This document shows positions 7,240 to 37,309 of a stretch of 64,000 bases of DNA, one piece after another; position 1 is the first letter of the stretch, and every line of letters begins with the position of its first letter. Source of the stretch: Nevskiaceae bacterium (GTDB taxonomy: Bacteria > Pseudomonadota > Gammaproteobacteria > Nevskiales > Nevskiaceae). A program made the position numbers and the translations under genes. Location: contig SSEB01000015.1 in assembly GCA_008012115.1 (NCBI GenBank), positions 1 through 64,000 of the forward strand, read 5' to 3'. Under the pieces are notes generated by a model. It was not told the DNA's origin, searched no databases, and saw only the letters and a list, made by a program, of their open reading frames with translations.

Positions 7240-7315
7240 CCGCCAACGGTTCGCAGCGGTTCGCGGCCGCGTACCGGCTCAGACCGGTCCGCCGACTAAA
7301 AAAAGTGAGGAGAGA

Positions 7316-9760: not shown

Positions 9761-9887
9761 GGCGCCAGGCCATGTCTGCGACGGCAATGATTGCGTTCGA
9801 GCGGGTAACGACCTGCATCCGGCGAGTCGGGCGCCCGCCCGTCGTCGCCCTGCGGGACTCAAGGCAGTTACGTAGAGGAGAGTAGCG

Positions 9888-12256: not shown

Positions 12257-12310
12257 AAAGACGGGACCAAGATTGATCGTTTGATGATCCGACAGGGAGA
12301 GGTCGTTCAA

Positions 12311-14554: not shown

Positions 14555-14595
14555 GGTACGACTCCCGCTCCCCCATCCGCACGCGGAGTCATTGC

Positions 14596-14633
14596 GACGG
14601 TCGCCGCTCACCCTTGGCGACCGTCTTTTTTTT
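14596..14633 (+). terminator. Rho-independent terminator after DUF1302 gene
   Basis: A perfect 10-bp stem (GACGGTCGCC with GGCGACCGTC), a 10-base loop and a run of eight T. It closes the MMPL-DUF1329-YCF48-DUF1302 unit, only 18 bp before the ATG of the second DUF1329 gene. Confidence 0.95.
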
Positions 14634-14651
14634 GCACGAGGCCCGGTGACC

Positions 14652-16031
14652 ATGCGCCTGCTCCGATACGGTCGTGACTACAGCCGCCGCGCGTTCCTGC
14701 AGAAACTGTCCGCCGGCGCGGCCTCGGCCGGCCTGCTGATGCCGCTATGGGACGCCATCGCCCAGAACGGCGACGCCGCCAGGGCCTATCCGGAAGAACT
14801 GCGCTCGATCGAGGCCTACAGCAAGGGCCGGCTGAAACCGGGTGACGAGATCACCGCGGCCAATGTCGAGTCGGTGAAGGCGCTGCTGGAGCCGATCAAG
14901 TACGCGCAGGTGGCGACCATGGGCCGGCGCCTGCGGCTGGTGAGCGGCACCACCGACGTGATGCGCCTGAGTCCCTGGGAATACCTGGAAGCGACGCTGC
15001 GCAATCGCGGCCGTGCGCGCTTCGATGCGCGCGGCAACGTGGTCACGCAGGACGGCAAGCCCTGGATCGGGGGCAATCCGTTTCCCGACGCCAAGACGGC
15101 GGTGGAGCTGTTCGCCGGCCTGACGCTGAGCTGGGGCCGTCACGATGCCTCGTTCTACGCGATCAAGGAGTACGACCTGTCCACCGAGGGCGACGTGCTG
15201 TTCCAGTACGACGCCGGCTGGGCGGAGCTGTCGCCGGTGGCGCGCGTGCGCCTGGAGCCGCGGCCCTACTGGCCGGGGCACGAGGACAAGCTGCGCTACC
15301 AGTCGATCTTCTTCGCCGCGCCGGACAGTGTGCGCGGCACCTCCTTCCTCAACGTCTGGGCCTACGACCAGAGCACGTTCCCCGATCTCTACGGCTACCT
15401 GCCGGCGTTCAAGCGCATCCGCCAGTTTCCCACCGATCAGCGCTTCGAGCCGCTGATTCCCGGCTCGACGCTGTATCTCTCCGATGCCTGGGCCGCGGGC
15501 GATCCGCTCTACACCTGGGGCAACTACCGCATCGTCGGTCGCGGCCCGGCGCTGGCCGCGCTGTCCGGCAACTGGAATGCCGCGCATCCCAACTGGGAGC
15601 ACGGTGTGCATGGCGGCCCCAAGGGCAAGACCTTCTGGGACACCGCGGTGGAGTTCGTGCCGGAGGCCATCGTCGTCGATGCGGAGCCGGTGAAATTTCC
15701 GCGCGCGCCGATCAGCAAGAAGCGCGTGTGGTTCGACGCGCGCACGATGCTGCCGATCGCCATGGTGTCCTACGACCGTCGCGGCGAACCCTATCGCTCC
15801 TTCGACGGCGCGTACTCGCTCTACGAATCCGGCGGTAAATCCTTCATGGACGGCGCACACCCGTACTGGTCGTGGACGCATGTGCACGCCTTCGACATCC
15901 AGACCGGGCGCATGACGCGGCTGGAGCAGGTCCGGTCCATCACCGGCGGGCACGCCACGCGCGTCAACGATGCCGGCCTCTACGACCGCTATCTGACCAA
16001 CACCGCGCTGATCCATCTCGGCAGCGGCTGA
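14652..16031 (+). CDS. DUF1329 family exported protein (copy 2), Tat-type signal
   Basis: A 459-residue paralog of the DUF1329 protein at 9888, with long stretches nearly identical by eye (for example YLPAFKRIRQFPTDQRFEP). The N-terminus has a strong twin-arginine motif SRRAFLQK followed by a hydrophobic run (AGAASAGLLMPLWDA). I chose the ATG at 14652; a GTG six bases earlier is possible and the ribosome site is weak. The gene begins 18 bp after a strong terminator, so it depends on read-through or on a promoter inside the upstream gene. It may be a specialised second carrier for the same system. The first non-coding 110-bp repeat starts 12 bp after its stop. Confidence 0.9.
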   Translation: MRLLRYGRDYSRRAFLQKLSAGAASAGLLMPLWDAIAQNGDAARAYPEELRSIEAYSKGRLKPGDEITAANVESVKALLEPIKYAQVATMGRRLRLVSGTTDVMRLSPWEYLEATLRNRGRARFDARGNVVTQDGKPWIGGNPFPDAKTAVELFAGLTLSWGRHDASFYAIKEYDLSTEGDVLFQYDAGWAELSPVARVRLEPRPYWPGHEDKLRYQSIFFAAPDSVRGTSFLNVWAYDQSTFPDLYGYLPAFKRIRQFPTDQRFEPLIPGSTLYLSDAWAAGDPLYTWGNYRIVGRGPALAALSGNWNAAHPNWEHGVHGGPKGKTFWDTAVEFVPEAIVVDAEPVKFPRAPISKKRVWFDARTMLPIAMVSYDRRGEPYRSFDGAYSLYESGGKSFMDGAHPYWSWTHVHAFDIQTGRMTRLEQVRSITGGHATRVNDAGLYDRYLTNTALIHLGSG

Positions 16032-16587: not shown

Positions 16588-18510
16588 ATGGCAAGACTCA
16601 TCAACATCGACAACGGCGGCACGCTGACCGACATCTGCGTGATCGACGGTGATCGTGTCTACCGCACCAAGACGCTGACCACGCCGTACGATCTGTCGAA
16701 ATGCTTCTTCGACGGTCTCCGCAAAGTCTCGAAGAGCATCTACGGCGAGGAAGATCTGCAGTCGCTGCTCACCAGCACCGACCATATCCGCTACTCCACC
16801 ACGCAGGGCACCAATGCCCTGGTCGAGCGCAAGGGGCCGCGCCTGGGCCTGGTCGTCGGCGGCACGCTGACCGCCGCGGCGCTGCAGCGCAACGCCGGCG
16901 AAAAGGAACTGTTCGCCGCACTGGTCGGCGAGCGCGTCGTCAGCCTCGACCCCGATCAGGATGAAGCCGCACTGGAGCTGGCCGCGGTGCGCGCCATCAA
17001 CGCACTGGCTTCGGCAGGCGCCAATCGCATTGTCGTCGCCGTCGGCGGCGCCGACCGCAATGCGGCCGAGCAGCGGCTCAAGCGGCTGTTGCTGCGCAAG
17101 TTCCCGCCACATCTGCTGGGCGCGCTGCCGCTGCTGTATTCCCACGAGGTGGTGGAGGACGAAGACGATGCGCGCCGCAGCTGGACGGCGCTGTTCAACG
17201 CCTTCCTGCATCCGGCGATGGAGCGCTTCCTCTACAACGCCGAGCATCTGCTGCGCGAGAACAAGAGCCAGAACCCGCTGCTGATCTTCCGCAATGACGG
17301 ACACTCGGCGCGCGTGGCCAAGACCATCGCCAGCAAGACCTACAGTTCCGGTCCGCGCGGCGGCGCCGAGGGCGCGCGGGCGCTGGCGGCGCACTATGGC
17401 TTCAAGCAGCTGCTGTCGATGGACGTCGGCGGCACCACCACCGATATCGGCCTGGTCGAGAACGGCGAAGTGCGCGCGCATCGGCGCGGCAGGATCGAGG
17501 GCGTCGACATCTCCTTCCCGTTGTGCGACGTGGTCAGCATCGGCGTCGGTGGCAGTTCGATCATCAAGGTCGAGGGCGGTGCGATCAAGGTCGGGCCGGA
17601 GAGCGTCGGCAGCACACCGGGGCCGGCCTGCTTCGGTCTCGGCGGCAAGGAAGCGACCATCACCGACGTGTTCCTGCTGCAGGGACTGCTCGACCCGGCT
17701 TCCTATTTCGGCGGCGAACTGAAGATCGATGTCGAACGCGCGCGCGCGGCGGTGGCGGAAAAAATCGCCGGGCCGCTGGGAATCTCGGTGGACGAGGCGG
17801 TGACGAAGATGGAGGCGGCCTGGGTGGCCAAGGTCGCCGACAGCCTCAAGGCGTTCGCCGCGATAACGCCGGACACCACGCTCGCGGCCTTCGGCGGCGC
17901 CGGGCCTTTCGTGGTGTGCAAGGTGGCGGAGGCTGCCGGCATCCGGCGCGTCATCATTCCTGGCCTGGCCGCGGTGTTCTCGGCCTTCGGCATCGGCTTC
18001 TCCGACATCGGCCATCAGTACGAGGCGCCACTCAAGTCCAAGGACAACGAGGGGCTGCAGGCGACGCAGGAGGAGCTGCTGCAGCGCGCGCGCCGAGGCA
18101 TGTTCGCCGAAGGCTTCGATCTCGGCGACTGCAAGGTGGAAAAGTCGCTGCTGCTGACCGAAGGCGGCGGCGAGAGCCGCGTGCCGCTGGCCAACGGCAA
18201 GTTGCCCGGCAAGATTCCGGCGACCACGCGCGCCTCGGTGTCGCTCACCGTGGTCAAGACCATGCCGCATCCGCAGCTCAGCGGCCGCTTTGGCGGACAG
18301 ACCCACCCGGCGGTGGCGCAGGGCGAGCGCAAGCTGCAAGTCGGCGCCGTGCCGCTGTATCGCGCCGAGGAGCAGGTGGCGGGCGCCAGCGCGCAGGGAC
18401 CCGCGGTGCTGGAGGAGGCGTTCTTCACCTGCCGACTCGAAGCCGGCTGGCAGTTCGAGTTCAACGCCAGCGGCGACATTCTTCTGACCCGCGCTGCAGC
18501 CAAGGCCTAG
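16588..18510 (+). CDS. Hydantoinase A/oxoprolinase-type carboxylase subunit (acetone/acetophenone carboxylase-like)
   Basis: A 640-residue ASKHA-fold protein of the HyuA/oxoprolinase family. The first phosphate loop reads DNGGTLTD (residues 8-15; the family norm is DIGGTFTD), the second DVGGTTTDIG lies near residue 280, and GTNALVERKGPRLG is also characteristic. The size and the order of this gene, a small zinc-type subunit, a second HyuA and a HyuB match the acetophenone carboxylase core (ApcA, B, C, D) better than three-gene acetone carboxylase. Such enzymes use ATP to carboxylate a methyl ketone to a beta-keto acid in the cytoplasm. GAGG precedes the start. Substrate not determined. Confidence 0.85.
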   Translation: MARLINIDNGGTLTDICVIDGDRVYRTKTLTTPYDLSKCFFDGLRKVSKSIYGEEDLQSLLTSTDHIRYSTTQGTNALVERKGPRLGLVVGGTLTAAALQRNAGEKELFAALVGERVVSLDPDQDEAALELAAVRAINALASAGANRIVVAVGGADRNAAEQRLKRLLLRKFPPHLLGALPLLYSHEVVEDEDDARRSWTALFNAFLHPAMERFLYNAEHLLRENKSQNPLLIFRNDGHSARVAKTIASKTYSSGPRGGAEGARALAAHYGFKQLLSMDVGGTTTDIGLVENGEVRAHRRGRIEGVDISFPLCDVVSIGVGGSSIIKVEGGAIKVGPESVGSTPGPACFGLGGKEATITDVFLLQGLLDPASYFGGELKIDVERARAAVAEKIAGPLGISVDEAVTKMEAAWVAKVADSLKAFAAITPDTTLAAFGGAGPFVVCKVAEAAGIRRVIIPGLAAVFSAFGIGFSDIGHQYEAPLKSKDNEGLQATQEELLQRARRGMFAEGFDLGDCKVEKSLLLTEGGGESRVPLANGKLPGKIPATTRASVSLTVVKTMPHPQLSGRFGGQTHPAVAQGERKLQVGAVPLYRAEEQVAGASAQGPAVLEEAFFTCRLEAGWQFEFNASGDILLTRAAAKA

Positions 18511-18537
18511 CGCGCATCCAACCAGGGATCGATCTCC

Positions 18538-18975
18538 ATGAAAGTCCTGATTACCGAATACCTGCGCATCAATCTCGATACCGAGCAGTGGGAGTGCCGC
18601 CGCTGCGGCCATGTCCACGGCAGTGCGCGCGACAACTACAAGCGCGGCCTGCTGGTCTACGACCGCGATCCGCGCGAGATCCACAAGCCCCTGCTCGACA
18701 CCAGGCTCTATGAGCGTACCTATTCGCCGGATCCGGCCTGGTGCCGCATCCTCGAATACTACTGCGCGTCCTGCGGCACCATGGTGGAGGCGGAATACCT
18801 GCCGCCGGGCCATCCCCCGTTGTACGACATCGAGCTGGACATCGATGCGCTCAAGCTCCAGTGGAAGGATCGCAAGGAAGTCGTCGAGCCAACCGTCGGT
18901 CCCGATCTGGCGCTGGAAAAGGTCAAGAACAACCGCGCCCTTCATGCCGACCACGCACATGGCCACAAGCATTGA
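18538..18975 (+). CDS. Small zinc-binding carboxylase subunit (acetone carboxylase gamma-like)
   Basis: A 145-residue protein with two CxxC pairs, CRRC (about residues 21-24) and CASC (about 77-80), spaced as in a zinc-ribbon, matching the small gamma subunit of acetone and acetophenone carboxylases. The C-terminus is an unusual His-rich tail (HADHAHGHKH) that might bind metal. It sits between the two HyuA-type genes, 27 bp after the first; its stop codon is embedded in the ribosome site (TGAGGAGG) of the next gene, implying stoichiometric co-translation. Confidence 0.85.
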   Translation: MKVLITEYLRINLDTEQWECRRCGHVHGSARDNYKRGLLVYDRDPREIHKPLLDTRLYERTYSPDPAWCRILEYYCASCGTMVEAEYLPPGHPPLYDIELDIDALKLQWKDRKEVVEPTVGPDLALEKVKNNRALHADHAHGHKH

Positions 18976-18985
18976 GGAGGCGCGC

Positions 18986-21115
18986 ATGAAACGAGTATCC
19001 GTGGATATCGGCGGCACCTTCACCGACTGCTTCGTCGCCTGGGAAAACCGCTACGTCGAGGGCAAGGCGCTGACCACCCACCATAACCTTGCGCTGGGCT
19101 TCAATGCCGCGCTGGCCGATGCCTGCAAGCAGCTGGACGTGGAAAACACCACGCTGCTGTCGCAGGTCGACTCCGTACGCTATTCGACGACGCTGGGCAC
19201 CAATGCCCTGATCGAGCGCAAGGGACCGCGCATCGGCGTGCTGGTCACCACCGGGTTCAAGAGCACCATCCCGCTGTCGCGCGCACGCGGCTATGGCGAA
19301 GGACTGCCGGAAAGCGAGCAGATGGATATTCCCAACGCCGTCCGCCCGCAGCCGATCGTGCCGATCCCGATGATCCGCGAGGTGCGCGAGCGCGTGGACT
19401 ATCTCGGCAAGGTGTTCTGGGCTTTGGACGAGGAGGATGTGCGCCTGCGCATCCGCGAACTGGTGGACGCCGGCGCCGAAGCGCTGGTGGTGATGTTCAC
19501 CAACAGCGTGGTCAATCCTGCGCATGAACTGCGCGTGCGCGAAATATTCCTGGAGGAATACCCGGCGCACCTGCTCGGCGCGATCCCGATGCTGCTGTCG
19601 CACCAGGTTGCCGGCCGCAAGGGCGAATATGCGCGCGGCACTTCGACCATCATGGACGCCTTCCTGCACCAGACCATGTACCACGGCCTTGGCACGCTGG
19701 AGCTGAACCTGCGCGCGCAGGGCTACAACAAGCCGATGCTGGTCAGCCACAATTCCGGCGGCATGGCGCAGCTCAACTCCACCGACGCGCTGCAGACGGT
19801 GCACTCCGGTCCCGTCTCGGGCGTCGCCGCCAGCGAACACCTGGCCGCCGCGGCGGAACTGGGCAACGTCGTCGCCACCGATATGGGCGGCACCAGCTTC
19901 GACATCGGCATCGTCGACCAGGGCGGCGTCAAGCACTACGATTTCAACCCGGTGATCGACCGCTGGCTGGTGTCGATCCCGATGGTGCACCTGGTGACGC
20001 TGGGCGCCGGCGGCGGTTCCATTGCGCGCTTCGACCGACTGTTCAACTCGGTGGAGATCGGTCCGCAGTCGGCCGGATCCGACCCGGGGCCGGCCTGCTA
20101 CGACCGCGGCGGTCTCAAGCCGACGGTGACCGACGCCGACCTCGTGCTCGGCTATCTCGATCCGAAGAACTACGCCAACGGCCGCATCCCGCTCAATCCC
20201 AAGCGCGCCAAGCAGGCGATCGAGGACCACCTTTGCGATGAGCTCGACATGAACGTGATCGAGACCGCCAAGCTGATCAAGCGCAACGTCGATGCCAACA
20301 TGGCCAACGGCATCGCCACCGAACTGCGCACGCGGGGCTACGAGCCCCGCGATTTCACCATCCTGGCCTACGGCGGCAATGGCCCGCTGCACGCCTGCGG
20401 CATTGCCAACGCGCTGGGCGTGAGCAAGATCCTGGCGCCGCCGTACTCGTCGACCTTCTCGGCTTGCGGCGCCGGCAACGTCAACCAGATGCACATCCAC
20501 GAGATGAGCACCTGGACCGTGCTGTTCAATCCTGCGACCAAGTCCTTTTTCTCCGACTACGAGACCTTCAACCGCGATGTCGAGGAGCTGGAACGCCGCG
20601 GCCGCGAAGACCTGCTGCGCCAGGGCATGCAGGCCGGAGACATCCGCTACCGGCTGGAACTGGACATGCGCTACGGCAACCAGCGCGTGCAGACGGCGGT
20701 GGTGACGCCGCTCAACCGCCTGCATGCGCAGCGCGACGTGCTGGCGCTGATGGACCAGTTCCACAAGAGCTATGGCGCGCGCTTCGGCGAGGGCAGCCAG
20801 TCGCCTGAAACCGGCGTGCGCATCAATACCGTGCGTGTCTGCGCCTACGTCGAACAGCCCAAGGTGCGGTTCTCCAAGCTCAAGCTCAACGGCAATACGC
20901 GGCCGGCGCCGGCACCGGTCGGACGCCGCGAGTGCCATTTCGTCGGTCTGCCCAAGGCGGTCGATACCCCGATCTATGGCGAGGATGCGCTGGCCGAAGG
21001 CACGCAGATCGAGGGGCCGGCCATCGTCACCACGCGCGCGACGACATACCTGGTGGAGCCGGGCTGGACCTACCACGCGGCGGCCCAGGGCGGCGTCTGG
21101 TTCATCCGCAAGTGA
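18986..21115 (+). CDS. Second hydantoinase A/oxoprolinase-type carboxylase subunit
   Basis: A 709-residue protein beginning at the ATG at 18986, after GAGGAGG. It has the canonical loop DIGGTFTD (residues 7-14), GTNALIERKGPRIG, a second phosphate loop DMGGTSFDIG near residue 300 and GAGGGSIARFD. It is a paralog of the 16588 subunit; in the acetophenone-type enzyme the two HyuA-like chains form different ATP or substrate sites. Coupled to the small subunit upstream. The following 85 bp contain no gene and possibly a degenerate dispersed repeat. Confidence 0.88.
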   Translation: MKRVSVDIGGTFTDCFVAWENRYVEGKALTTHHNLALGFNAALADACKQLDVENTTLLSQVDSVRYSTTLGTNALIERKGPRIGVLVTTGFKSTIPLSRARGYGEGLPESEQMDIPNAVRPQPIVPIPMIREVRERVDYLGKVFWALDEEDVRLRIRELVDAGAEALVVMFTNSVVNPAHELRVREIFLEEYPAHLLGAIPMLLSHQVAGRKGEYARGTSTIMDAFLHQTMYHGLGTLELNLRAQGYNKPMLVSHNSGGMAQLNSTDALQTVHSGPVSGVAASEHLAAAAELGNVVATDMGGTSFDIGIVDQGGVKHYDFNPVIDRWLVSIPMVHLVTLGAGGGSIARFDRLFNSVEIGPQSAGSDPGPACYDRGGLKPTVTDADLVLGYLDPKNYANGRIPLNPKRAKQAIEDHLCDELDMNVIETAKLIKRNVDANMANGIATELRTRGYEPRDFTILAYGGNGPLHACGIANALGVSKILAPPYSSTFSACGAGNVNQMHIHEMSTWTVLFNPATKSFFSDYETFNRDVEELERRGREDLLRQGMQAGDIRYRLELDMRYGNQRVQTAVVTPLNRLHAQRDVLALMDQFHKSYGARFGEGSQSPETGVRINTVRVCAYVEQPKVRFSKLKLNGNTRPAPAPVGRRECHFVGLPKAVDTPIYGEDALAEGTQIEGPAIVTTRATTYLVEPGWTYHAAAQGGVWFIRK

Positions 21116-21200
21116 CGGCGAGAGCCGTCATCCCCGCGTTCCACATGGACTTCCTGCGGTCGCAGGTGGGGATTCAGAACAAGATAGTGAGGAGATTGTC

Positions 21201-23468
21201 GTGAACGATCAGATTTCCAAGGAAGACAAGGCGCTGCTCGACAAATTCCTGGCCGACAACCAGCTGTTCCTCGGCCCGGACCCGGAGATCATGCGCAATC
21301 ACAGCCTGACGCCACGTTCCAGGGCTGAGGATGAAATCCTCAAGAAGGGACTGGACAATCACCAGGTGCACCATGTGCGCGGCCTGATCAATGCCGCGCT
21401 GTCGGAAGCCTTCACCATGGTCAACCAGATGGGTGCCGCGCCCGGCGCCAAGTGGGGCGATCTGGTCACTGGCATCTACACCGCACAGGGTGATCTGGCG
21501 ATGATCGCGCCGCACGGCATCATCGCCTTCGCGGCCTGCTGCTTCTACCCGATCCGCTTCATCGTCAAGTACTGGAGCAACGATCCGACCGTCGGCGTCA
21601 AGGACGGCGATGGCTTCATTCATAACGATGCGCGCTACGGCGGCATTCACAACACCGACCAGTCGATGATGATGCCGCTGTTCTACAAGGGCGAGCTGGT
21701 GTGCTGGCTGTCGAGCACGATCCACGAAGGCGAGAACGGCGCGACCGAGCCCGGCGGCATGCCGGCGGCGGCCGAGAGCAAGTACGACGAGGGCATCAAG
21801 ATGTCGCCCTTCAAGGTCGTGGAGAATTTCCAGCTCAAGCGCGACCTCGTCACCTTCCTGCAGAACTCGGTGCGCGATCCCAAGCTGCAACTCGAGGACA
21901 TGAAGGTCAAGCTGCACGCCGTCATGCGCCTGCGCGAGCGCATCATCGCCATCCTCGACCAGTACGGCCGCGATGCCCTGATCGGTACGCTGCGCCTGCA
22001 CCTGGAGGACACCGAGACCGAGATGCGCCGCCGCATCCGCGAGATGCCGGACGGCACCACCCGCGTGCTGCAGTTCATGGACTCCTCGCTGCGCGAGAAC
22101 TGCCTGCAGAAGATCAGCTGCGCGATCACGGTCAAGGGCGACCGCCTGATCATGGATTTCCGCGGCACCGCGCCGCAGTTCCTGAACCGCTCGGTCAACA
22201 CCAACATCGCCTCGTTCAAGGCGGCGTTGTGCACCGGTCTGCTGCAGAACATCTGGCCGGACCTGCCGCACACGATGGCCGTGCTGTCACCCATCGAGAT
22301 CATCACCGACCGCAACTCCATCGTCGATGCCGAGGGCGAAATGCCGCAGGCGATGAGCCTGATGCCGCTGTTCAAGGGCTGCGTGGTCTGGACCATCCCG
22401 ATGAACAAGTTCAACTACAGCGTGCCGCACAAGTACTCGGCGGTGATCGCCTCGCAATACGACCAGGCGGCGACCTTCATCTATGGCGGCCTGACCCAGC
22501 ACGGCGATGTGACCGGAAATTTCTGCGGCGACATCAACGGCAACGGCCAGGGTGCGCGCAGCCATGCCGACGGCGAGCACTCGGTGTCGCCGGTGTTCGG
22601 CTTCATGTGCGATTCCGGCGAACACGAGATCAACGAGGAAGACACGCCGATCATCCGCCTGGGAGCGCAGCGTCTGGCCAAGGACCGCATTGCCTGGGGA
22701 AAGTATCGCGGCGGCATGGGCTACGAACAGATCGCCACCGCGCGCGGCTCGGCGCTGTGGGGCTTCATGACCGGCTGCGAGGGCTCCAAGTTTCCGTCGG
22801 CGCAGGGTCTGTTCGGCGGCTATTCCTGCCCGTCCTACCAGCTGATGAAGATCAAGGGCATCAACATCTTCGAGGAGCTGAAAAAGGACCCGAAGGTCGT
22901 GGAAGTGTTCGACATCGTCAAGCTGATGAACGAGCGGCCGATCAAGGGCGGCAAGTACTCCAGCAACGACATGGGCATGACCTTCGAGGTCTGCAACGAG
23001 GGCGAGATCTACATGATCTGCCAGGGTTCCGGCGGCGGTTATGGCGACGTGCTGGAGCGCGATCCGGCGCTGGTGATGAAAGATCTTCGAGAGGATCTGA
23101 TGTCGCACGAGAACGCCCGCGACATCTACAAGGTGGTCTACGACGAGAAGACCCTGGTGGTGGACGAGGACGCCACAAAGAAGCTGCGCGACGACTATCG
23201 CCGCGAGCGCATCCGGCGCGGCAAGCCCTTCGAGCAGTTCTGCAAGGAATGGGTCACGCCGGAGCCGCCGAAGGACATCCCGTATTTCGGCTCATGGGAC
23301 AACAACCGGGAAATCTACGCGACCACCATGGGGCAGCGCGTGAAGATGCCCGCCGAGCAGTTGCAGGGCGCCTTCATGCTGAACCCGAAAGACGTCCGCA
23401 TCATGCAACTCGAAGGCGAACTTGAGAAGGTCAAGGCGCAGCTCGACGACTGCCGCAAGAAAGCCTGA
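21201..23468 (+). CDS. Hydantoinase B/oxoprolinase-type carboxylase subunit
   Basis: A 755-residue HyuB-family protein. The start is GTG at 21201, preceded by GTGAGGAG at good spacing and giving VNDQISKEDKALL; upstream codons in frame have no ribosome site. Family blocks include GDGFIHNDARYGGIHNTDQ, FYKGELVCW, TIHEGENGATEPGGMP and GGGYGDVLERDP. A short coiled coil closes the C-terminus (MQLEGELEKVKAQLDD). HyuB chains carry the carboxyl-transfer site in acetone/acetophenone carboxylases. Fourth subunit of the enzyme encoded from 16588. Confidence 0.88.
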   Translation: MNDQISKEDKALLDKFLADNQLFLGPDPEIMRNHSLTPRSRAEDEILKKGLDNHQVHHVRGLINAALSEAFTMVNQMGAAPGAKWGDLVTGIYTAQGDLAMIAPHGIIAFAACCFYPIRFIVKYWSNDPTVGVKDGDGFIHNDARYGGIHNTDQSMMMPLFYKGELVCWLSSTIHEGENGATEPGGMPAAAESKYDEGIKMSPFKVVENFQLKRDLVTFLQNSVRDPKLQLEDMKVKLHAVMRLRERIIAILDQYGRDALIGTLRLHLEDTETEMRRRIREMPDGTTRVLQFMDSSLRENCLQKISCAITVKGDRLIMDFRGTAPQFLNRSVNTNIASFKAALCTGLLQNIWPDLPHTMAVLSPIEIITDRNSIVDAEGEMPQAMSLMPLFKGCVVWTIPMNKFNYSVPHKYSAVIASQYDQAATFIYGGLTQHGDVTGNFCGDINGNGQGARSHADGEHSVSPVFGFMCDSGEHEINEEDTPIIRLGAQRLAKDRIAWGKYRGGMGYEQIATARGSALWGFMTGCEGSKFPSAQGLFGGYSCPSYQLMKIKGINIFEELKKDPKVVEVFDIVKLMNERPIKGGKYSSNDMGMTFEVCNEGEIYMICQGSGGGYGDVLERDPALVMKDLREDLMSHENARDIYKVVYDEKTLVVDEDATKKLRDDYRRERIRRGKPFEQFCKEWVTPEPPKDIPYFGSWDNNREIYATTMGQRVKMPAEQLQGAFMLNPKDVRIMQLEGELEKVKAQLDDCRKKA

Positions 23469-23499
23469 CGCCGATATCCAATACCACAGGAGCAGCAGC

Positions 23500-24318
23500 A
23501 TGAATGACATCAACAAAGCTTTCCGCGTCGACGGCAAGGTGGCTTTGATCAGTGGCGCCGCGCGCGGCATCGGTGCCGCCATCGCCGAGGCACTGGTGCA
23601 GGCTGGCGCAACCGTGCTGATCACCGATGTGCTCGACCAGGTCGGGCAGGACACGGTGGCGCGATTGCGCAAGGCCGGTGGCAAGGCCGAGTTTCACCAC
23701 CACGACGTCACCAACGAGGCGCAATGGGAATCCGCGGTCGCCGCCGCGGTGAAGCATTTCGGCCGCCTGGATATCGTCGTCAACAACGCCGGCATCGAGA
23801 CTGCGGCGCTGCTGACGCAGTGCACGGTCGAGGATTTCCGCCGTGTCATGGAGGTCAATGTCACCGGCGTATTCCTCGGCCTCAAGCACGCGGTACGTGC
23901 GATGGCGCCGGGCGGCGCGGCGGGCAAGGGCGGCACCATCATCAACATGTCCTCGGTGGCTGGTCTGATCGGCACCACCGGCCATATCGCCTACCACACG
24001 TCCAAGGGTGCGGTGCGTCTGATGACCAAGGCGGCGGCGGTGGAATGCGCGCAGCTCGGCACCGGCATCCGCGTCAACTCGGTGCATCCGGCCATCGTGT
24101 CGACCGAGATGGGCACCAACTTCATCCAGCACGCCGTGGATCTCCAGCTGGCGCCGGACTACGCCACCGCCGAGGGCGCGTTCAAGGCGGCCCACCCGAT
24201 GGGCCGCTTCGGCGAGCCGGCGGACGTGGCCAATGCCGTGGTGTACCTGGCCTCCGACGCGTCCCGCTGGGTGACGGGCACGGAGATGGTGCTCGACGGC
24301 GGCTACACGGCGGCCTGA
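23500..24318 (+). CDS. Short-chain dehydrogenase/reductase
   Basis: A 272-residue classical SDR starting at 23500 after ACAGGAGC. The cofactor loop SGAARGIG is at residues 18-25, NNAG follows near 95, and the catalytic Ser and YHTSK are present. An acidic residue after the second strand (TDVLDQ) suggests NAD(H). The C-terminus GTEMVLDGGYTA is typical of the family. In the carboxylase operon it could oxidise a secondary alcohol to the ketone substrate or act on a beta-hydroxy acid; neither is proven. Confidence 0.9.
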   Translation: MNDINKAFRVDGKVALISGAARGIGAAIAEALVQAGATVLITDVLDQVGQDTVARLRKAGGKAEFHHHDVTNEAQWESAVAAAVKHFGRLDIVVNNAGIETAALLTQCTVEDFRRVMEVNVTGVFLGLKHAVRAMAPGGAAGKGGTIINMSSVAGLIGTTGHIAYHTSKGAVRLMTKAAAVECAQLGTGIRVNSVHPAIVSTEMGTNFIQHAVDLQLAPDYATAEGAFKAAHPMGRFGEPADVANAVVYLASDASRWVTGTEMVLDGGYTAA

Positions 24319-24322
24319 GCGC

Positions 24323-25156
24323 ATGGGCGCGTTGCTCGACCTGGCGGCATCCTCCTCGTCGCTGTGGCTGGACTACGGCGACTATGCCGGCCGTCTGCTG
24401 GCCGGCGGCCAGGTGCCCTGGAGCGATGTCTCCGCCTACGTCGCGTGGCAACGCAAGGCCCAGGGCCTGCTCAAGTCGGATGTGATCGCGCTGCCGCTGG
24501 CGCCGCTCAGCGAGGCCTGGCTCGCCGCCCATCCCGGGCTGCGCGAGGCCATGGCCGGCAAGCGTCGCGCGGTATTCCCGATCAAGACCCTGCTGGCCGA
24601 CGAAGCACTGCGCACCCATATCGCCGAGCTGCTGTCCGGCTTGCGGGCCAGCTTCGCCCGGCAGCCGCTGGCCCTGGTGCTGCCGTCACCGCGGGCGTGG
24701 ATCGCGCTGGCCTATCGGCAGGCGCATGGTCCGCAGGATGACGCCACCAGCGACGCCGACGATGTCGACTCGGCCGCGATGTACGTCGCCGATTTTCTGC
24801 GCAGCTTCGGCGATTGCGGCATCGACGCGCTGCTGCTGCAGGAAACGGCCGGCGCTGAGCCGACCGATGCCGCAGAGCTGGAGTGGTACCGCCCGGTGTT
24901 CAACGTCTGCGCGCATTATCGCTGGGACTGCGGCCTGCACCTGCCGGCGGCCGCCCATGCGCCGGGCGCTGTCGAAGGGCTGGGTTTCGTGGTCGCGCCG
25001 CAACGGCTCGACATCGGACAGTCTGTCGTCGCGCTGGATGAAGCGTTCTGGACGGGCGCCGAGCCACCACCCGCGACCGCGGGATTGCGCTTTGCCGTGG
25101 TCCCGGCCGGCGCCAGCCCGGAAGCGGTGCTGGATCGCCTGGCGGTGCTGCGATGA
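24323..25156 (+). CDS. Uncharacterised 277-residue protein of the carboxylase operon
   Basis: I do not recognise the family with confidence. The protein is soluble, without signal peptide or membrane segment. Stretches such as YVADFLRSFGDCGIDALLLQE followed by a downstream NVCAHYRWDCGLHLP loosely recall TIM-barrel proteins of the uroporphyrinogen decarboxylase/methionine synthase type. It starts 4 bp after the SDR stop and overlaps the DUF3237 gene (ATGA), so it belongs to the operon. By position and size it could be the equivalent of the fifth acetophenone carboxylase subunit (ApcE, about 34 kDa); this is a guess. Confidence 0.6.
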   Translation: MGALLDLAASSSSLWLDYGDYAGRLLAGGQVPWSDVSAYVAWQRKAQGLLKSDVIALPLAPLSEAWLAAHPGLREAMAGKRRAVFPIKTLLADEALRTHIAELLSGLRASFARQPLALVLPSPRAWIALAYRQAHGPQDDATSDADDVDSAAMYVADFLRSFGDCGIDALLLQETAGAEPTDAAELEWYRPVFNVCAHYRWDCGLHLPAAAHAPGAVEGLGFVVAPQRLDIGQSVVALDEAFWTGAEPPPATAGLRFAVVPAGASPEAVLDRLAVLR

Positions 25157-25617
25157 GCCTGTCCTTCGATCTGGAGCCGGTCTGCCGGTTCAACGCCCGC
25201 CTGCACCACCCGCCCGAGATCATCGGACCGGTGGCCGAGGGCCTGCGCGTCAATTTCCACATTGCCGGCGGCGAGATCGACGGCCCGCGGCTGCGTGGCA
25301 TCGTGCGCCCGGTGGGGGCCGACTGGTTCCTCATGCGCAGCGATGGTGTCGGCCTGCTCGATGTGCGGACCACCATCGAGACCCACGACGGTGCGCTGAT
25401 CCTGATCACCTATACCGGCATCGCCGATGCCGGCGCCGACGGCTACCGCAGATTCCTGCAGGGCGAGCTCCCGGCACGTCTGCCCCTGCGTACGGTGCCG
25501 CGCATGTCGACGGCGCACCCGGCGTATCAGTGGGTCAACCGGACACAGTTTCTCAATATCGGCGAGGCGGACCTTGAGCGCCATGAGGTCGTCTACGACA
25601 TTTATGCGGTGCGTTAG
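25153..25617 (+). CDS. DUF3237 family protein
   Basis: A 154-residue protein with the DUF3237 pattern: an N-terminal strand pair (EPVCRFNARLHHPPEI), GGEIDGPRLRGIVRPVGADW, GVGLLDVRTTIETHDGALI, and a terminal NRTQFLNIG. The family often accompanies aromatic and lipid catabolic genes and is a small beta-barrel of unproven function. ATGA overlap with the preceding gene. Confidence 0.85.
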   Translation: MSLSFDLEPVCRFNARLHHPPEIIGPVAEGLRVNFHIAGGEIDGPRLRGIVRPVGADWFLMRSDGVGLLDVRTTIETHDGALILITYTGIADAGADGYRRFLQGELPARLPLRTVPRMSTAHPAYQWVNRTQFLNIGEADLERHEVVYDIYAVR

Positions 25618-25641
25618 CGGCGCGGTCCAGGAGAACACGCA

Positions 25642-27672
25642 ATGATCAAAGAAGGCGAATTGCTGTGGACGCCGCGAAAGGACTTCGCGCGCGACTCCAA
25701 CCTGTCGTCCTACATGGAATGGTTGCAGCGCGAACGTGGCCAGGCGTTCGCGGACTACGACGCGCTGTGGCGCTGGTCGGTGAGCGACATCGAGGGCTTC
25801 TGGGCCTCGATCTGGGCATACTTCGAGGTGCAGTCGACCACGCCTTACCAGCGCGTGATCGATCGGCGCTCGATGCCGGGCGCCAAGTGGTTCGAGGGAT
25901 CCCAGGTCAATTACGCCGAGCACCTGCTGCGCCGCGAGGCGCAGGCGGGTCCCGATGAAGTGGTGTTCCATCACATGACGGAAACGCGCCCGCTGGCGCG
26001 GATGACCTGGCACGAGCTCGGTCGCCGCGTGCGCATCCTGGCAACGCAGCTGCGTGCCATGGGCATCAAACCCGGCGATCGCGTGGTGTCGTACATGCCG
26101 AACGTGCCAGAGACCGCGATTGCGATGATTGCCGCGACCGCCATCGGCGCGATCTGGTCGTCGGCGGCGCCGGAGTTTGGCGTCAAGACCGTGATCGAGC
26201 GCTTTGCGCAGATCGAGCCGAAACTGCTGTTCGCCGCCGACGGCTACAGCTTCGGCGGCAAGATCTTCCGTCGCGAGGCCGAGGTGCGACGCATCGCCTC
26301 TGAACTGCCGACACTGGAGAAAATCGTCTGGTTGCCATACATGGACCCCGGCTACACCGTGCCGGATCTGCCCAACGTGGTCGCCTGGTCGAAGCTGTTT
26401 GAGCACCCCGATGTGCCGCGCGAGCAATTCAGCTACGAGCGGGTCGCACACGATCATCCGCTGTGGGTGGTGTTCTCATCCGGCACCACCGGCCTGCCCA
26501 AGGCCATCGTTCACAGCCATGTCGGTGTCCTGCTGGAACATCTCAAATTGATGCATTTCCATCTCGGTCTGAGACCGGGATCGACGATGTTCTTCTACAG
26601 CACCACCGGCTGGATGATGTGGAACCTGCTGCTGGCGGCACTGCATACCGGATCGTCGGTGGTGTTGTACGACGGCAATCCGGCATATCCGTCCAACGAT
26701 TTCCTGTGGAAGCTCGCCGCCGACACCGGTACGACCTGTTTTGGCGCCAGCCCCACGTTTATCCAGATGATGGAGAAGGCCGGCCTGGTCCCGCGGGAGC
26801 GCTATGACCTCTCGCGCCTGGAGTCGATGCTGGTGGCCGGCGCGCCTTCGACACCGGAAACCTTTGCCTGGTGCTATCGCTGCGTGAAGAGTGATCTCTG
26901 GGTGACGTCGCAGTCCGGTGGCACCGAGATCTGCAGCGGTTTCGTCGGCGCCGCGCCGCTGCTGCCGGTCTATGCCGGCGAAATCCAGACCCGCATGCTG
27001 GGTATGGACGTGCATGCCTGGAGCGACGACGGCAAGGAACTGATCGATGAGGTGGGCGAACTGGTGGTGACCAGTCCGTTTCCGTCGATGCCGATCTATT
27101 TCTGGAAGGACAGCAACGGCAAGCGCTATCACGATGCCTACTTCGATGTCTTCCCCGGCGTCTGGCGGCACGGCGATTTCATCAAGATCAACGGCCGTGG
27201 CGGCTGCTACATCTACGGGCGCTCGGACTCCACGCTTAACCGCTTTGGCGTGCGTATCGGCACCGCAGAAATCTACCGCGCCGTGGAACAGGTGGACGAA
27301 GTGGCCGACAGCCTGGTGGTCTGCTGCGAGCTGCCGGGCGGGCAGTTCTTCATGCCGCTCTACGTGAAGCTCAAGCCCGGCTACAAGCTCGACGACGCAC
27401 TCTGCAAGCGCATCAACGCCAAGCTGCGTGAGGATTGCAGCCCGCGCCATGTGCCGGACCGCATCTACGCCGTGGCGGCGGTGCCTTACACGCTCACCGG
27501 CAAGAAGATGGAGGTGCCGGTGCGCAAGATCCTGATGGGCTGGCCTCTGGAAAAAGCCGCCAGCCGCGATGCGATGATGAACCCGGACGCCATCGACTAT
27601 TTCGTGCGCTTCGCCCAGGAGTCGATCGACTACCAGTGGCGGCGCGTCGAGCCCAAGGCAGCGCAGGCCTGA
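25642..27672 (+). CDS. Acetoacetyl-CoA synthetase (acetoacetate-CoA ligase)
   Basis: A 676-residue ANL-superfamily ligase with the length and N-terminal cap of acetoacetyl-CoA synthetases (LWTPRKDFARDSNLSSYMEW). The AMP-binding P-loop SSGTTGLPKAI is at about residues 279-289, followed by STTGWMMWN; the catalytic lysine lies in LTGKKMEVPVRKIL near residue 620. It activates acetoacetate or a similar beta-keto acid with ATP and CoA, exactly the product class of a ketone carboxylase, which strongly links it to the upstream enzyme. Good ribosome site CAGGAG. No thiolase follows in this window. Confidence 0.93.
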   Translation: MIKEGELLWTPRKDFARDSNLSSYMEWLQRERGQAFADYDALWRWSVSDIEGFWASIWAYFEVQSTTPYQRVIDRRSMPGAKWFEGSQVNYAEHLLRREAQAGPDEVVFHHMTETRPLARMTWHELGRRVRILATQLRAMGIKPGDRVVSYMPNVPETAIAMIAATAIGAIWSSAAPEFGVKTVIERFAQIEPKLLFAADGYSFGGKIFRREAEVRRIASELPTLEKIVWLPYMDPGYTVPDLPNVVAWSKLFEHPDVPREQFSYERVAHDHPLWVVFSSGTTGLPKAIVHSHVGVLLEHLKLMHFHLGLRPGSTMFFYSTTGWMMWNLLLAALHTGSSVVLYDGNPAYPSNDFLWKLAADTGTTCFGASPTFIQMMEKAGLVPRERYDLSRLESMLVAGAPSTPETFAWCYRCVKSDLWVTSQSGGTEICSGFVGAAPLLPVYAGEIQTRMLGMDVHAWSDDGKELIDEVGELVVTSPFPSMPIYFWKDSNGKRYHDAYFDVFPGVWRHGDFIKINGRGGCYIYGRSDSTLNRFGVRIGTAEIYRAVEQVDEVADSLVVCCELPGGQFFMPLYVKLKPGYKLDDALCKRINAKLREDCSPRHVPDRIYAVAAVPYTLTGKKMEVPVRKILMGWPLEKAASRDAMMNPDAIDYFVRFAQESIDYQWRRVEPKAAQA

Positions 27673-27676
27673 GCCG

Positions 27677-28717
27677 ATGTCCGACGCCTCGCAAGCCACG
27701 GTCAATCGCCGCGTCGTGCTGGCCTCGCGCCCGCAGGGCGCGGTGACGCCGGACAATTTCCGCCTGGAGCGCGAGCCGTTGCCGCCGGTCGGCGATGGAC
27801 AGATGCGCCTGCGCACGCTATGGCTGTCGCTTGATCCCTACATGCGCGGCCGCATGAGCGATGCACCGTCCTATGCCGAACCGGTGGCGGTCGGTGCGGT
27901 GATGTGCGGCGGCACCGTGAGCCGGGTCGACGAGTCGCGTCTCGAGGGGTTCCGCGTGGGCGACCTGGTGCTGGCCGCCGCCGGCTGGCAGGACTACACG
28001 CTGTCCGACGGCCGAGGTGTGACGCGGCTCGATCCCGGACTTTCGACGCCGAGCCTGGCGCTGGGCGTGCTGGGCATGCCCGGCTTCACCGCCTACGTCG
28101 GCCTGCTCGACATCGGCAACCCGCAGCCGGGCGAGACGGTGGTGGTCGCCGCCGCCACCGGCGCGGTCGGTTCGGTGGTGGGGCAACTGGCAAAGCTGCG
28201 CGGCTGCCGCGCGGTGGGCATCGCTGGTGGTGCCGAAAAATGCGAATACGCCGTGCGCGAACTGGGTTTCGACGCCTGTCTCGATCATCACGAGGACGAT
28301 CTGGCCGGCCGTCTCGCCAACGCCTGTCCGCAAGGCATCGACGTGTATTTCGAGAACGTCGGCGGCGCCGTGCTGGAGGCGGTGCTGCCGTCGCTGAGGG
28401 TCGGCGCGCGCATCCCGCTGTGCGGATTGATCTCTTACTACAGCAGTGCCGCGGCGCCGGGCGGCGCCGACCGCAGCGCCGTCCTGCTGCGCGCGCTGCT
28501 GGTGCGACGCGTGCGCCTGCAGGGCTTCATCGTTTCCGATCACTACGCGGGCCGCTTCGGCGCCTTCCAGCGCGAGATGGCGGCGTGGCTGCGCGAAGGC
28601 CGCATCCGCTATCGCGAGGACGTGGTGGAAGGTCTGGAACAGGCGCCGCAGGCCTTCATGGGCCTGCTGCGCGGCGACAACTTCGGCAAGCTGATCGTTC
28701 GGCTTGCCGCCCACTGA
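27677..28717 (+). CDS. NADP-dependent MDR oxidoreductase (CurA/prostaglandin-reductase-like)
   Basis: A 346-residue zinc-free medium-chain reductase. The N-terminus has SLDPYMRGRMSD, the nucleotide loop is AATGAVGSVVGQLAK, and ISYYSS plus LQGFIVSDH are typical of the CurA/leukotriene-B4 dehydrogenase branch. These enzymes reduce the double bond of alpha,beta-unsaturated ketones or aldehydes using NADPH, so an enone intermediate is plausible. Starts 4 bp after the CoA-ligase stop. Confidence 0.9.
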   Translation: MSDASQATVNRRVVLASRPQGAVTPDNFRLEREPLPPVGDGQMRLRTLWLSLDPYMRGRMSDAPSYAEPVAVGAVMCGGTVSRVDESRLEGFRVGDLVLAAAGWQDYTLSDGRGVTRLDPGLSTPSLALGVLGMPGFTAYVGLLDIGNPQPGETVVVAAATGAVGSVVGQLAKLRGCRAVGIAGGAEKCEYAVRELGFDACLDHHEDDLAGRLANACPQGIDVYFENVGGAVLEAVLPSLRVGARIPLCGLISYYSSAAAPGGADRSAVLLRALLVRRVRLQGFIVSDHYAGRFGAFQREMAAWLREGRIRYREDVVEGLEQAPQAFMGLLRGDNFGKLIVRLAAH

Positions 28718-28732
28718 CAACAGGAGGCGGTT

Positions 28733-29494
28733 ATGGCAAGGGTGCAGGACAAGGTCTGTGTGGTCACCGGCGCCGCGCGCGGGCTCGGGCTGGCCGCCGC
28801 CGAGGCGCTGCTGGCGGAGGGCGCGAAGGTGATGCTCACCGACGTGGACCGTGCCGCCGGCGAGGCCGAGGCGCGGCGGCTGGGGGCGCGTGCCGCCTTC
28901 ATGCCGCAGGACGTGACGCGCGAGGACGGCTGGAACGAGGTATTCGACGCCGTGACCGCGCGCTGGGGCGCGCCCGATGTGCTGGTCAACAATGCCGGCA
29001 TCGCCGACATCGCCGACGTGGAGCGCGTACCGCTCAAGACCTGGCAGCGCACGCTGGACATCAACCTCTCCGGGGTGTTCCTGGGCACGCAGGCGGCGAT
29101 CGCGCGCATGAAGGGCCGGGGCGGGTCCATCGTCAACATCGCATCCATCGAGGGACTGGTCGGCGAGGCGCTGATCCCGGCCTATAACGCCAGCAAGGGC
29201 GGCGTGCGCATCTTCAGCCGCTCGGCGGCGATCCATTGCGCACGCAGCGGCTACGGCATCCGCATCAACAATGTCTGCCCGGGATTCGCGGAGACGCAGA
29301 TGGTGAGCGGCGCGCTGGCCACGATGAGCCCGGAAGCGGCGCAGTCCTTTGCTGCCGCCACACTGGGTCGCATCCCGTTGGGCCGCTTCGCCAGGCCGGC
29401 CGAGATCGCCGCGGCGGTGCTGTTCCTGGCGTCGGACGAATCCAGCTACGTCACCGGTTCCGACCTGGTGGTCGACGGTGGCATGACCGCCTGA
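28733..29494 (+). CDS. Short-chain dehydrogenase/reductase (second)
   Basis: A 253-residue classical SDR with ribosome site AGGAGG. TGAARGLG is at residues 12-19, TDVDR gives an acidic residue favouring NAD(H), and NNAG, the Ser and YNASK follow. C-terminus GSDLVVDGGMTA. Only family-level similarity to the SDR at 23500, so it is not a recent duplicate. Likely an alcohol or beta-hydroxyacyl oxidation step in the same pathway. Confidence 0.9.
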   Translation: MARVQDKVCVVTGAARGLGLAAAEALLAEGAKVMLTDVDRAAGEAEARRLGARAAFMPQDVTREDGWNEVFDAVTARWGAPDVLVNNAGIADIADVERVPLKTWQRTLDINLSGVFLGTQAAIARMKGRGGSIVNIASIEGLVGEALIPAYNASKGGVRIFSRSAAIHCARSGYGIRINNVCPGFAETQMVSGALATMSPEAAQSFAAATLGRIPLGRFARPAEIAAAVLFLASDESSYVTGSDLVVDGGMTA

Positions 29495-29525
29495 ACCGAA
29501 AACCCATTCCAGAGGAGAACCCCGC

Positions 29526-30641
29526 ATGAGCAAAAAACCCGTCGTCATCTACGGCGTCACCGGCTACACCGGCCGGCTGGTCGCCGAATACCTGCGCGAG
29601 TACCGCGTGCCCTTCATCGCCGCCGGACGCGACGGCAAGCGCATCAAGGAGGTGATCGAGAAGGTGCCGGGCATCGAGAATGCCGACTACGAGATCGCCG
29701 AGGTCGAGCACAGCGTCGAGGCGCTGACCAAGCTGTTCAAGGGCGCCAAGGTGGTGTGCAACATGGTCGGCCCGTTCATGAAGTACGGCCCCGAGGCGGT
29801 CGAGGCCTCGCTGGCCGCCGGTTGCCACTACACCGACACCAACGGCGAGCAGAACTGGATGATGCACGCCGAGAAGACCTGGGGCGCCAAGTTTGCCGCC
29901 AAGGGCCTGCTGCTGTCGCCGGGCATCGCGCAGATGTACACCACCGGCGAGATCGCCGCCAACATCTGCCTGGAGACCCCGGGACTCGACACGCTCGACA
30001 TCCTGGTGCTGTGGCGCGGTTTCCCGACCTATGCCTCGACCCAGACCATCTTCAGCATCCTCACTGCCGATTTCTTCTACCTGGACCAGAACCAGTACGT
30101 GCAGTGGTCGCCTTTCGCCAAGGCCGAGGTGATGGTGCCCGGTCAGCACGCGGTGGCGATGGCGCTGCCCTGGGGCGGCACCGCGCACCCGGTGTGGTTC
30201 AAGAACGATCCGCGCGTCGCCACCTGCCGCGCCATGGGTGGCGTGTTCGAGCGCACGGTGATGGAAGGCGTGGTGCAGATCACCCAGGTGGTCGAGGACA
30301 AGATCAAGAAGCTGCCCAAGGCCGAGGCCGAGAAGGCGCTGTCCGACATGGCGGCGTCGCTGCAGGCGGGCATGCCGCCGCGCGAAAACCCGCGCATCAA
30401 CACCTCGGTGGATTCGGTGCACGCCAGCGGTCCGCTGGGTCGTGTGCACTGCGTGATCCACGGCAACTGCAACTACAAGCAGACCGGCCTGCTGCAGGCC
30501 TATGCCGCCTACTACCTGCTGCAGTCGCCGCCGCTGCGCACCGGCTTCGCCTCCGGCTGCCAGGCCTTCGGCCACCGCCAGCTGCTCGGCGTGCTGCAGA
30601 GCTTCGGCCTGGTCAGCGCGCCGGTGGTGACGCACGGCTGA
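29526..30641 (+). CDS. Saccharopine dehydrogenase-like NAD(P)-binding protein
   Basis: A 371-residue protein with an N-terminal Rossmann fold (VVIYGVTGYTGRLVAEYL, glycine loop GVTGYTG at residues 10-16) and the saccharopine-reductase/trans-acting enoyl reductase-like continuation (NMVGPFMKYGPEAVEASLAAG, then a DTNGE block). The second half contains no membrane segment. It probably performs an NAD(P)H reduction on a pathway intermediate rather than lysine metabolism. RBS AGAGGAGA. Last gene of the operon, followed by a strong hairpin. Confidence 0.82.
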   Translation: MSKKPVVIYGVTGYTGRLVAEYLREYRVPFIAAGRDGKRIKEVIEKVPGIENADYEIAEVEHSVEALTKLFKGAKVVCNMVGPFMKYGPEAVEASLAAGCHYTDTNGEQNWMMHAEKTWGAKFAAKGLLLSPGIAQMYTTGEIAANICLETPGLDTLDILVLWRGFPTYASTQTIFSILTADFFYLDQNQYVQWSPFAKAEVMVPGQHAVAMALPWGGTAHPVWFKNDPRVATCRAMGGVFERTVMEGVVQITQVVEDKIKKLPKAEAEKALSDMAASLQAGMPPRENPRINTSVDSVHASGPLGRVHCVIHGNCNYKQTGLLQAYAAYYLLQSPPLRTGFASGCQAFGHRQLLGVLQSFGLVSAPVVTHG

Positions 30642-30716: not shown

Positions 30717-31661
30717 TCAGCGGACGGTGGTGTTCAGCGGCACGCCAAAGGCCTGCACGAAATCCTGCTCGAAACCGGCGGGCTTGATCGCCAGCACGTC
30801 GCAGTCGACGGTATCGATGAGGCGCGCAGCGACGCTGCCGGCGACGACGACAGTGAGGTTGCGGCGGCACAGGCTGCCGATCACCAGCAGATCGACGTCG
30901 TGGGTGTGGACTGCCGCCGTCAGCGCCTGCACCGGTTCACCGTCCAGCGTGTGCGTCCTTGCGGAGGCTGCGCCATAACGGGCCGCCAGCCGCTCCAGCT
31001 CGGCTTGATAGGCGGCGCGTGCCGGCACTGCAGTTGCGGCATCGGACGCGGCGTGCGGCGGTGCCGGGGTGAATACGGAGAACAGCTCAAGGCTGGCGCT
31101 GCTCTGCGAGGCGCAGTCGCGTGCCGCGCGCAGCACGCGCTCGTTGAGCGCGCGGTCGCGATGCCAGGGATGCTGTGGATCGACCGCCGCGGCCACCTTC
31201 TCCGGCAGGCGATGGCCTTCACGATGCACCAGGTACAGCGGGAAGGGGCAGAGCCGCAGCAGTTCGTGATCCACCGAGATCGGGACCAGCGTGCGCAGGC
31301 GCGAGGCGCGGCCGGCGTCTTTCACCAGCAGGTCTGGCGCATCGTCCAGGGCATGGTTCAGGATGTTGATGGCGTCCGCGGTCTGCCACTGCACCTCGGT
31401 CTGCACGCGCAGCCCGCTCTCCTGCAGCTCGAAGCGCAGATCCTCCAGCCAGTCACGGCAGCGCGACAGCGCGGACTCCTGCGCGATGCCGGCGAGCCGG
31501 TGATTCATGTGATCGAGCGCATCGGCGGTGCGGTTGCGCGCGTACAGGCGGATGCGAAGTTCGGCGCCGCTGGCGCGCGCCAGCGCCACCGCGCGATGCA
31601 GCGCCGGCGTCTCGTTGGCGTCGTGGTCGAGCACGACCAGGATGCGTCGATAGGCGCTCAT
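30717..31661 (-). CDS. Universal stress protein, tandem UspA domains (UspE-like)
   Basis: A 314-residue protein with two Usp domains. The first begins YRRILVVLDHDANETPALHR; the second ends with VDLLVIGSLCRRNLTVVVAGSVAARLIDTVDCDVLAIKP, where the G-x-x-R-R-x(7-9)-G-S block is the ATP-binding signature. Length and duplication resemble UspE. A cytoplasmic stress protein; its neighbour upstream (31690) is probably co-transcribed. Confidence 0.9.
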   Translation of the reverse strand: MSAYRRILVVLDHDANETPALHRAVALARASGAELRIRLYARNRTADALDHMNHRLAGIAQESALSRCRDWLEDLRFELQESGLRVQTEVQWQTADAINILNHALDDAPDLLVKDAGRASRLRTLVPISVDHELLRLCPFPLYLVHREGHRLPEKVAAAVDPQHPWHRDRALNERVLRAARDCASQSSASLELFSVFTPAPPHAASDAATAVPARAAYQAELERLAARYGAASARTHTLDGEPVQALTAAVHTHDVDLLVIGSLCRRNLTVVVAGSVAARLIDTVDCDVLAIKPAGFEQDFVQAFGVPLNTTVR

Positions 31662-37289: not shown

Positions 37290-37309
37290 CGGGGCCTCTG
37301 GTTGAAGGT

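Follow-up and report, generated by a model that had tools for sequence, protein, structure and literature searches.

The closest described relative of the system treated here is the acetophenone carboxylase (Apc) of Aromatoleum aromaticum EbN1. At the time of the 2017 structure paper, biochemical characterisation of the Apc branch was limited to a single enzyme (PMC5214803). Homologous subunits occur in acetone carboxylase (AcxABC), and carboxylation of a methyl ketone followed by a coenzyme A (CoA) ligase is also found in the Rhodococcus Hpe pathway. Here we describe an operon in a Nevskiaceae bacterium, within a window of 64,000 nucleotides (contig SSEB01000015.1 of assembly GCA_008012115.1, positions 1 to 64,000). 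The operon spans 16588-30641 on the plus strand and comprises 11 genes that overlap or lie no more than about 90 bp apart, in the order alpha', gamma, alpha, beta, short-chain dehydrogenase/reductase (SDR), epsilon, DUF3237, acetoacetyl-CoA-synthetase-type ligase, CurA-type reductase, SDR and DUF5938. With moderate confidence, we read it as encoding a five-subunit Apc-branch carboxylase that uses ATP but no biotin and acts on a bulky, hydrophobic, non-aromatic ketone, together with enzymes that feed the carboxylase and use its product. Judged from its genes, the operon probably adds CO2 to a hydrophobic methyl ketone and joins the product to CoA for breakdown.

The four core subunits carry the features of Apc-type enzymes while being distant from the known one. 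The ApcA-like alpha' subunit (16588-18510), a HyuA-type protein and the second ASKHA kinase subunit that is specific to Apc-type enzymes, matches the Apc alpha chain of PDB entry 5L9W (E=4e-89). It is followed by the ApcB-like zinc-finger gamma subunit (18538-18975; Pfam Acetone_carb_G, 1.9e-37; 5L9W_C, E=6e-32), in which the four zinc cysteines are kept as CRRC and CASC pairs, by the HyuA-type, ApcC-like alpha subunit (18986-21115), and by the HyuB-type, ApcD-like beta subunit (21201-23468; Pfam Hydantoinase_B, 7e-77), whose GTG start codon at 21201 is preceded by GAGGAG. Scores against the NCBIfam models remain below the equivalog cut-offs, at 347 bits for alpha' (ApcA, cut-off 1250), 567 for alpha (ApcC, 1500) and 308 for beta (ApcD, 1500). 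The motifs listed for the Apc branch are DxGGTxTD, D(V/M)GGT and GxxPGP, with a fingerprint R/KERiDsxG in alpha only (PMC5214803). The ATP motifs occur in both kinase-type subunits, as DNGGTLTD, DVGGT and GSTPGP in alpha' and as DIGGTFTD, DMGGT and GSDPGP in alpha, and the fingerprint, as RERVDYLG, is confined to alpha. The gene order is likewise the apcABCD(E) order of this branch, in which epsilon is optional, with one SDR inserted ahead of epsilon.

The original prediction had described a four-subunit enzyme, a count that has to be corrected. Sequence searches of Pfam, NCBIfam and the PDB gave no match for the 277-aa open reading frame at 24323-25156, and neither did BLAST against ApcE. An AlphaFold model built from an alignment of 30 relatives (pLDDT 95.6) has a UroD-like fold, and its top PDB fold match is ApcE (9FOU; E=1.2e-8, TMq 0.65), with uroporphyrinogen decarboxylases ranking behind. 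A profile of this family is co-linear with EbN1 ApcE at E=8e-4, with a probability of only 24%. Among relatives whose ApcD shares 74% identity or more, hereafter close relatives, the gene is adjacent in 26 of the 27 that have enough downstream sequence. Given this predicted ApcE fold and the conserved position, the reading frame is assigned as the epsilon subunit, which makes the carboxylase a five-subunit enzyme.

Since the Pfam family names of these chains are those of hydantoinases, an ATP-dependent hydantoinase/lactamase or oxoprolinase was weighed as another identity for the enzyme. We computed maximum-likelihood trees for beta and for alpha plus alpha', each including the EbN1 Apc, Acx and hydantoinase-type (Hyd) chains. 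The strain names EbN1, PbN1 and KH32C in these trees are our own assignments, EbN1 being identified by its apcABCDE-bal layout. The window's alpha, alpha' and beta fall in a well-supported 16-member clade beside the EbN1/PbN1 Apc, separate from the two-gene Hyd-type chains of EbN1 and from other Hyd chains. The alpha' chain groups only with Apc alpha' (support 100/99), a subunit that Acx and Hyd do not have. No tree nests the window chains within Acx or Hyd, whose branches are long, such that the exact branching order is unsure. Acetone carboxylases have three subunits, lack alpha' and epsilon and cluster with Acx, and hydantoinases and oxoprolinases have two subunits and cluster with Hyd; the operon follows neither pattern. 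The presence of alpha', a zinc-binding gamma and epsilon, together with the split from the Hyd chains, makes the hydantoinase reading highly improbable. Sequence comparison thus supports the assignment of the operon to a ketone carboxylase of the Apc branch that is divergent from the known enzyme. The class first suggested, a ketone carboxylase resembling acetophenone carboxylase, is borne out by subunit order, alpha' and the trees, and the phylogeny against Acx and Apc enzymes that had been proposed as a check places the chains beside Apc and not with hydantoinases or oxoprolinases.

The step following carboxylation is assigned to the ligase at 25642-27672, which passes the equivalog cut-off of the acetoacetate-CoA ligase model TIGR01217 (820 bits versus 521), matches PDB 4WD1 over its full length (E=1e-210) and carries the motifs SSGTTGLPK and TGKK. 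Bal, the EbN1 counterpart, is a 464-aa protein of another AMP-binding subfamily with an AMP-binding_C_2 domain; BLAST found no significant similarity between it and the window ligase, and no benzoylacetate-CoA ligase of this type is found in the operon. The ligase is therefore of the acetoacetate type and not a benzoylacetate ligase, as had been recognised at the outset. AcsA2 is an acetoacetyl-CoA synthetase. It is also the closest characterised homologue (42%) of Rhodococcus HpeE, the proposed activator of hydroxyphenyl-beta-ketopropionates (PMC9618137). Because a ligase proposed to act on an aromatic beta-keto acid thus has an acetoacetyl-CoA-synthetase homologue, membership in this family is no proof of an aliphatic substrate, and the earlier step from ligase type to an aliphatic or isoprenoid ketone does not hold.

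The remaining operon genes encode mainly oxidoreductases. SDR dehydrogenase 1 (23500-24318; adh_short_C2, 5e-63), in which YxxxK is present, is a probable secondary-alcohol dehydrogenase, and SDR dehydrogenase 2 lies at 28733-29494 (adh_short_C2, 3.7e-63). A DUF3237 protein (25153-25617; PF11578, 1.8e-32) precedes the ligase, and a CurA-type NADPH enone reductase (27677-28717; NF058644, 541 bits versus a cut-off of 440) follows it. The last gene (29526-30641) encodes a DUF5938 protein (Pfam, 3.9e-134), an NAD(P)-dependent dehydrogenase that is 83-91% identical to most relatives; a PDB sequence search gave no match, and its fold is that of saccharopine/carboxyspermidine dehydrogenase (Foldseek 8H50, E=6e-18). 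A convergent universal-stress-protein (Usp) gene on the minus strand (30717-31661) sets the downstream limit. All the features originally listed, namely the HyuA, zinc, HyuA and HyuB subunits, two SDRs, the ligase and the CurA-type reductase, are present on the plus strand; that inventory left out DUF3237, and its end point at 27672 cut the operon short of DUF5938. Upstream, an accessory envelope module on the plus strand (7214-16031) encodes MMPL exporter-like, DUF1329, YCF48-like, DUF1302 and DUF1329 proteins by Pfam and probably handles a hydrophobic substrate, and a candidate LAL-type (MalT/LuxR) regulator lies on the minus strand (4194-7022; TPR_MalT and GerE).

The gene arrangement is conserved well beyond chance. 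Within 10 kb, the ligase is found downstream in 23 of the 27 close relatives and a homologue of the LAL regulator in 16, and an SDR is linked in 20. CurA is linked in only three of them and is for this reason unfit for inferring an unsaturated substrate, so that the proposal of an unsaturated or hydroxylated precursor, drawn from CurA and the two SDRs, keeps its genes and loses much of the weight of CurA as a pathway marker. ApcD is 80-90% identical in Solimonas, Sinimarinibacterium, Nevskia, Rudaea and Burkholderia, the closest overall (92%) being from a metagenome bin labelled Rhodanobacteraceae, and a single scan yielded 71 related loci, to which plasmid-borne clusters are added. The parts vary among these relatives: Cupriavidus necator pBB1 has a compact set of an SDR, five subunits, a ligase and a LAL regulator, a CoA-transferase subunit pair replaces the ligase in Neorhizobium petrolearium, an acetyl-CoA acyltransferase and an alcohol dehydrogenase adjoin the cluster in Rhodococcus qingshengii, and thiolase genes lie near some clusters. 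Parts exchanged in this way fit a route from ketone to beta-keto acid, CoA ester and thiolysis. As a separate observation, one class-sample genome (G213), without the steroid-degradation protein IpdA taken up below, has thirteen zinc-subunit matches (loci L003, L008, L012, L015, L018, L020 and others), at least six of which adjoin alpha'- and alpha-type genes, indicating a large expansion of Apc-like carboxylases.

We propose a model in which an SDR would first oxidise a secondary alcohol, yielding a methyl ketone. Alpha and alpha' would then spend one ATP each, one to form the enol phosphate of the ketone and the other to form carboxyphosphate from bicarbonate. By analogy with Apc chemistry, epsilon may help the activated ketone and carboxyphosphate to meet, giving a beta-keto acid. 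The ligase, whose family is established, would convert this acid to a beta-ketoacyl-CoA, and a thiolase encoded outside the operon could then split off acetyl-CoA and leave a shortened acyl-CoA; CurA and DUF5938 are presumed to act as accessory oxidoreductases. We consider a bulky, hydrophobic, non-aromatic methyl ketone (alicyclic, terpenoid or steroid) the most likely substrate, ahead of acetone or acetophenone. The host genome (94.8% complete) was surveyed through family searches and a few of its stretches. No BoxB, intradiol dioxygenase or PF00848 ring hydroxylase was found, which argues, though not conclusively, against an aromatic product, and the host has lipid-transfer-type thiolases. 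Several points weigh against this assignment. Substrates are not readable from sequence in this enzyme family (PMC5214803), and we found no activity data for any member of the window clade. The operon itself contains no thiolase gene. The survey of aromatic routes covered BoxB, intradiol dioxygenases and PF00848, leaving room for extradiol, phenylacetate and anaerobic routes, and the host does have an HsaC/BphC-like dioxygenase. Separately, a literature search for Apc-like enzymes whose substrates are isoprenoid, steroid or further non-aromatic ketones turned up nothing specific.

An aromatic methyl ketone of the acetophenone type, with the ligase acting in the manner of HpeE on an aryl beta-keto acid, would agree with the nearest characterised carboxylase being acetophenone carboxylase and with AcsA2 being the closest characterised homologue of HpeE (PMC9618137). 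All Apc models, however, score far under their equivalog cut-offs, the window ligase is unlike Bal, and the oxygenases missing from the host are those that common aerobic aryl-CoA routes need, so we consider an aromatic substrate rather unlikely. A different gene, at the very start of the contig (53-2287, plus strand, possibly truncated), suggests a substrate derived from rubber-like or terpenoid chains, an isoprenoid methyl ketone; it encodes a RoxA-like diheme cytochrome homologous to rubber oxygenase A. This protein matches 4B2N over its full length (E=6e-109), with two CxxCH motifs and the MauG motif PYFHNGSVP, and genes of the methylcitrate cycle lie nearby. Of 32 carrier genomes, 8 have a RoxA-like gene, whereas 3 of 274 class genomes do. 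However, F317, which is conserved in known RoxA and RoxB and which the title of one paper reportedly calls essential in RoxA, is Ala in the 53-2287 protein and its close relatives, and W302 is Phe. The other 24 carrier genomes have no RoxA-like gene, and where one exists it is rarely near the cluster, with a single relative (G279) having it close to a paralogous cluster. The RoxA product 12-oxo-4,8-dimethyltrideca-4,8-diene-1-al does carry a terminal methyl ketone (PMC5979037), but the known rubber route proceeds by oxidation of the aldehyde end and then beta-oxidation, with no ketone carboxylase named there. Supply of an isoprenoid ketone by this oxygenase is accordingly doubtful, and we rejected the RoxA-like gene as a pointer to a rubber or isoprenoid substrate on account of the missing F317 and the many carriers without the gene. 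The same substitution by Ala is found in close relatives of the protein from Solimonas and Sinimarinibacterium, and RoxA-like paralogues are numerous in S. fluminis.

A more specific candidate within the preferred class of non-aromatic ketones is a 20-ketosteroid (a pregnane such as progesterone), which would undergo carboxylation at C21, CoA activation and thiolysis. The host has a steroid-degradation region (contig C20 of genome G000, about 418-458 kb, 418000-458000; loci L171 and L172), whose IpdA matches the IpdAB of Rhodococcus jostii RHA1 and Mycobacterium tuberculosis in the PDB (E=4e-76) and whose Ltp2-like thiolase matches 6OK1 (4e-120). An HsaC-like extradiol dioxygenase is encoded there too, as are IpdB- and IpdC-like proteins (assigned by eye or by broad family), acyl-CoA dehydrogenases and MMPL-like proteins. 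Among 28 carrier genomes, comprising that of the window and 27 from the ApcD scan, 22 have IpdA, as opposed to 1 of 44 class controls, a sample that is not matched (Fisher p=4e-12), and its co-occurrence with the operon spans Nevskiales, Burkholderia, Aromatoleum and Zavarzinia. Shared ancestry inflates this association, however. Two isolates that carry the operon, Rudaea (G280) and Paraburkholderia lycopersici (G288), whose ApcD is about 86% identical, have no IpdA, and neither do four class-sample genomes with related clusters. Within 10 kb of the clusters that were read there is no steroid-specific gene, and only broad thiolase and ligase families matched. Moreover, the known bacterial step on progesterone is oxidation by a Baeyer-Villiger monooxygenase (PMC12239570), and an open reading frame resembling such an enzyme was seen by eye in the host steroid region. 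A 20-ketosteroid is thus a possible substrate, put forward as a proposal and not as a result, and on present evidence an improbable one. If it were correct, the C17 side chain of 20-ketosteroids would be shortened without Baeyer-Villiger cleavage.

Two further groups of genes lie downstream of the operon. Genes of the methylcitrate cycle (36102-44473), encoding PrpF, an aconitase-type AcnD and a citrate-synthase-family PrpC, occupy the minus strand, with a PrpR-type sigma-54 activator divergent from them, and a polysaccharide biosynthesis cluster (45804-52906) encodes an acyltransferase, a flippase-type protein and several glycosyltransferases.

The operon belongs to a second, deep clade of the Apc branch that is widely shared, keeps epsilon and has exchanged the CoA-activation step. 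Identifying its substrate would show whether bacteria in general use ketone carboxylation to consume hydrophobic methyl ketones, and the co-occurrence with steroid genes yields one specific and testable proposal. Like EbN1 ApcABCDE (5L9W, 9FOU), the window enzyme has five subunits, with alpha', gamma, alpha and beta in the same order, as well as two ATP sites, zinc cysteines and neighbouring MMPL, YCF48 and DUF1302 genes. It differs in that its core subunits are each only 30-49% identical and form a separate clade, that an SDR stands between beta and epsilon, that the ligase belongs to another family, and that no ethylbenzene genes were seen beside the operon. The MMPL, YCF48-like and DUF1302 genes come after apc-bal in EbN1 (L135, 980-6650) and before the operon in the window, and another YCF48-like gene lies after the acetone carboxylase of EbN1 (L163). 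AcxABC has homologous alpha, beta and gamma subunits and a product activated as acetoacetate, whereas it lacks alpha' and epsilon, has a different gene order and lies outside the window clade. The Rhodococcus Hpe pathway (HpeCBA, HpeE) likewise carboxylates a methyl ketone and then uses a ligase that has an acetoacetyl-CoA synthetase homologue, but its carboxylase is biotin-dependent, unrelated, and requires a phosphorylated phenol substrate (PMC9618137). Lastly, the Apc-like clusters on R. jostii RHA1 pRHL2 and on a plasmid of N. petrolearium, although no acetoacetyl-CoA-synthetase-type gene is annotated alongside them and the latter has CoA-transferase A and B, belong to the same clade as the window operon and share its five-gene core, including a small unannotated protein after beta.

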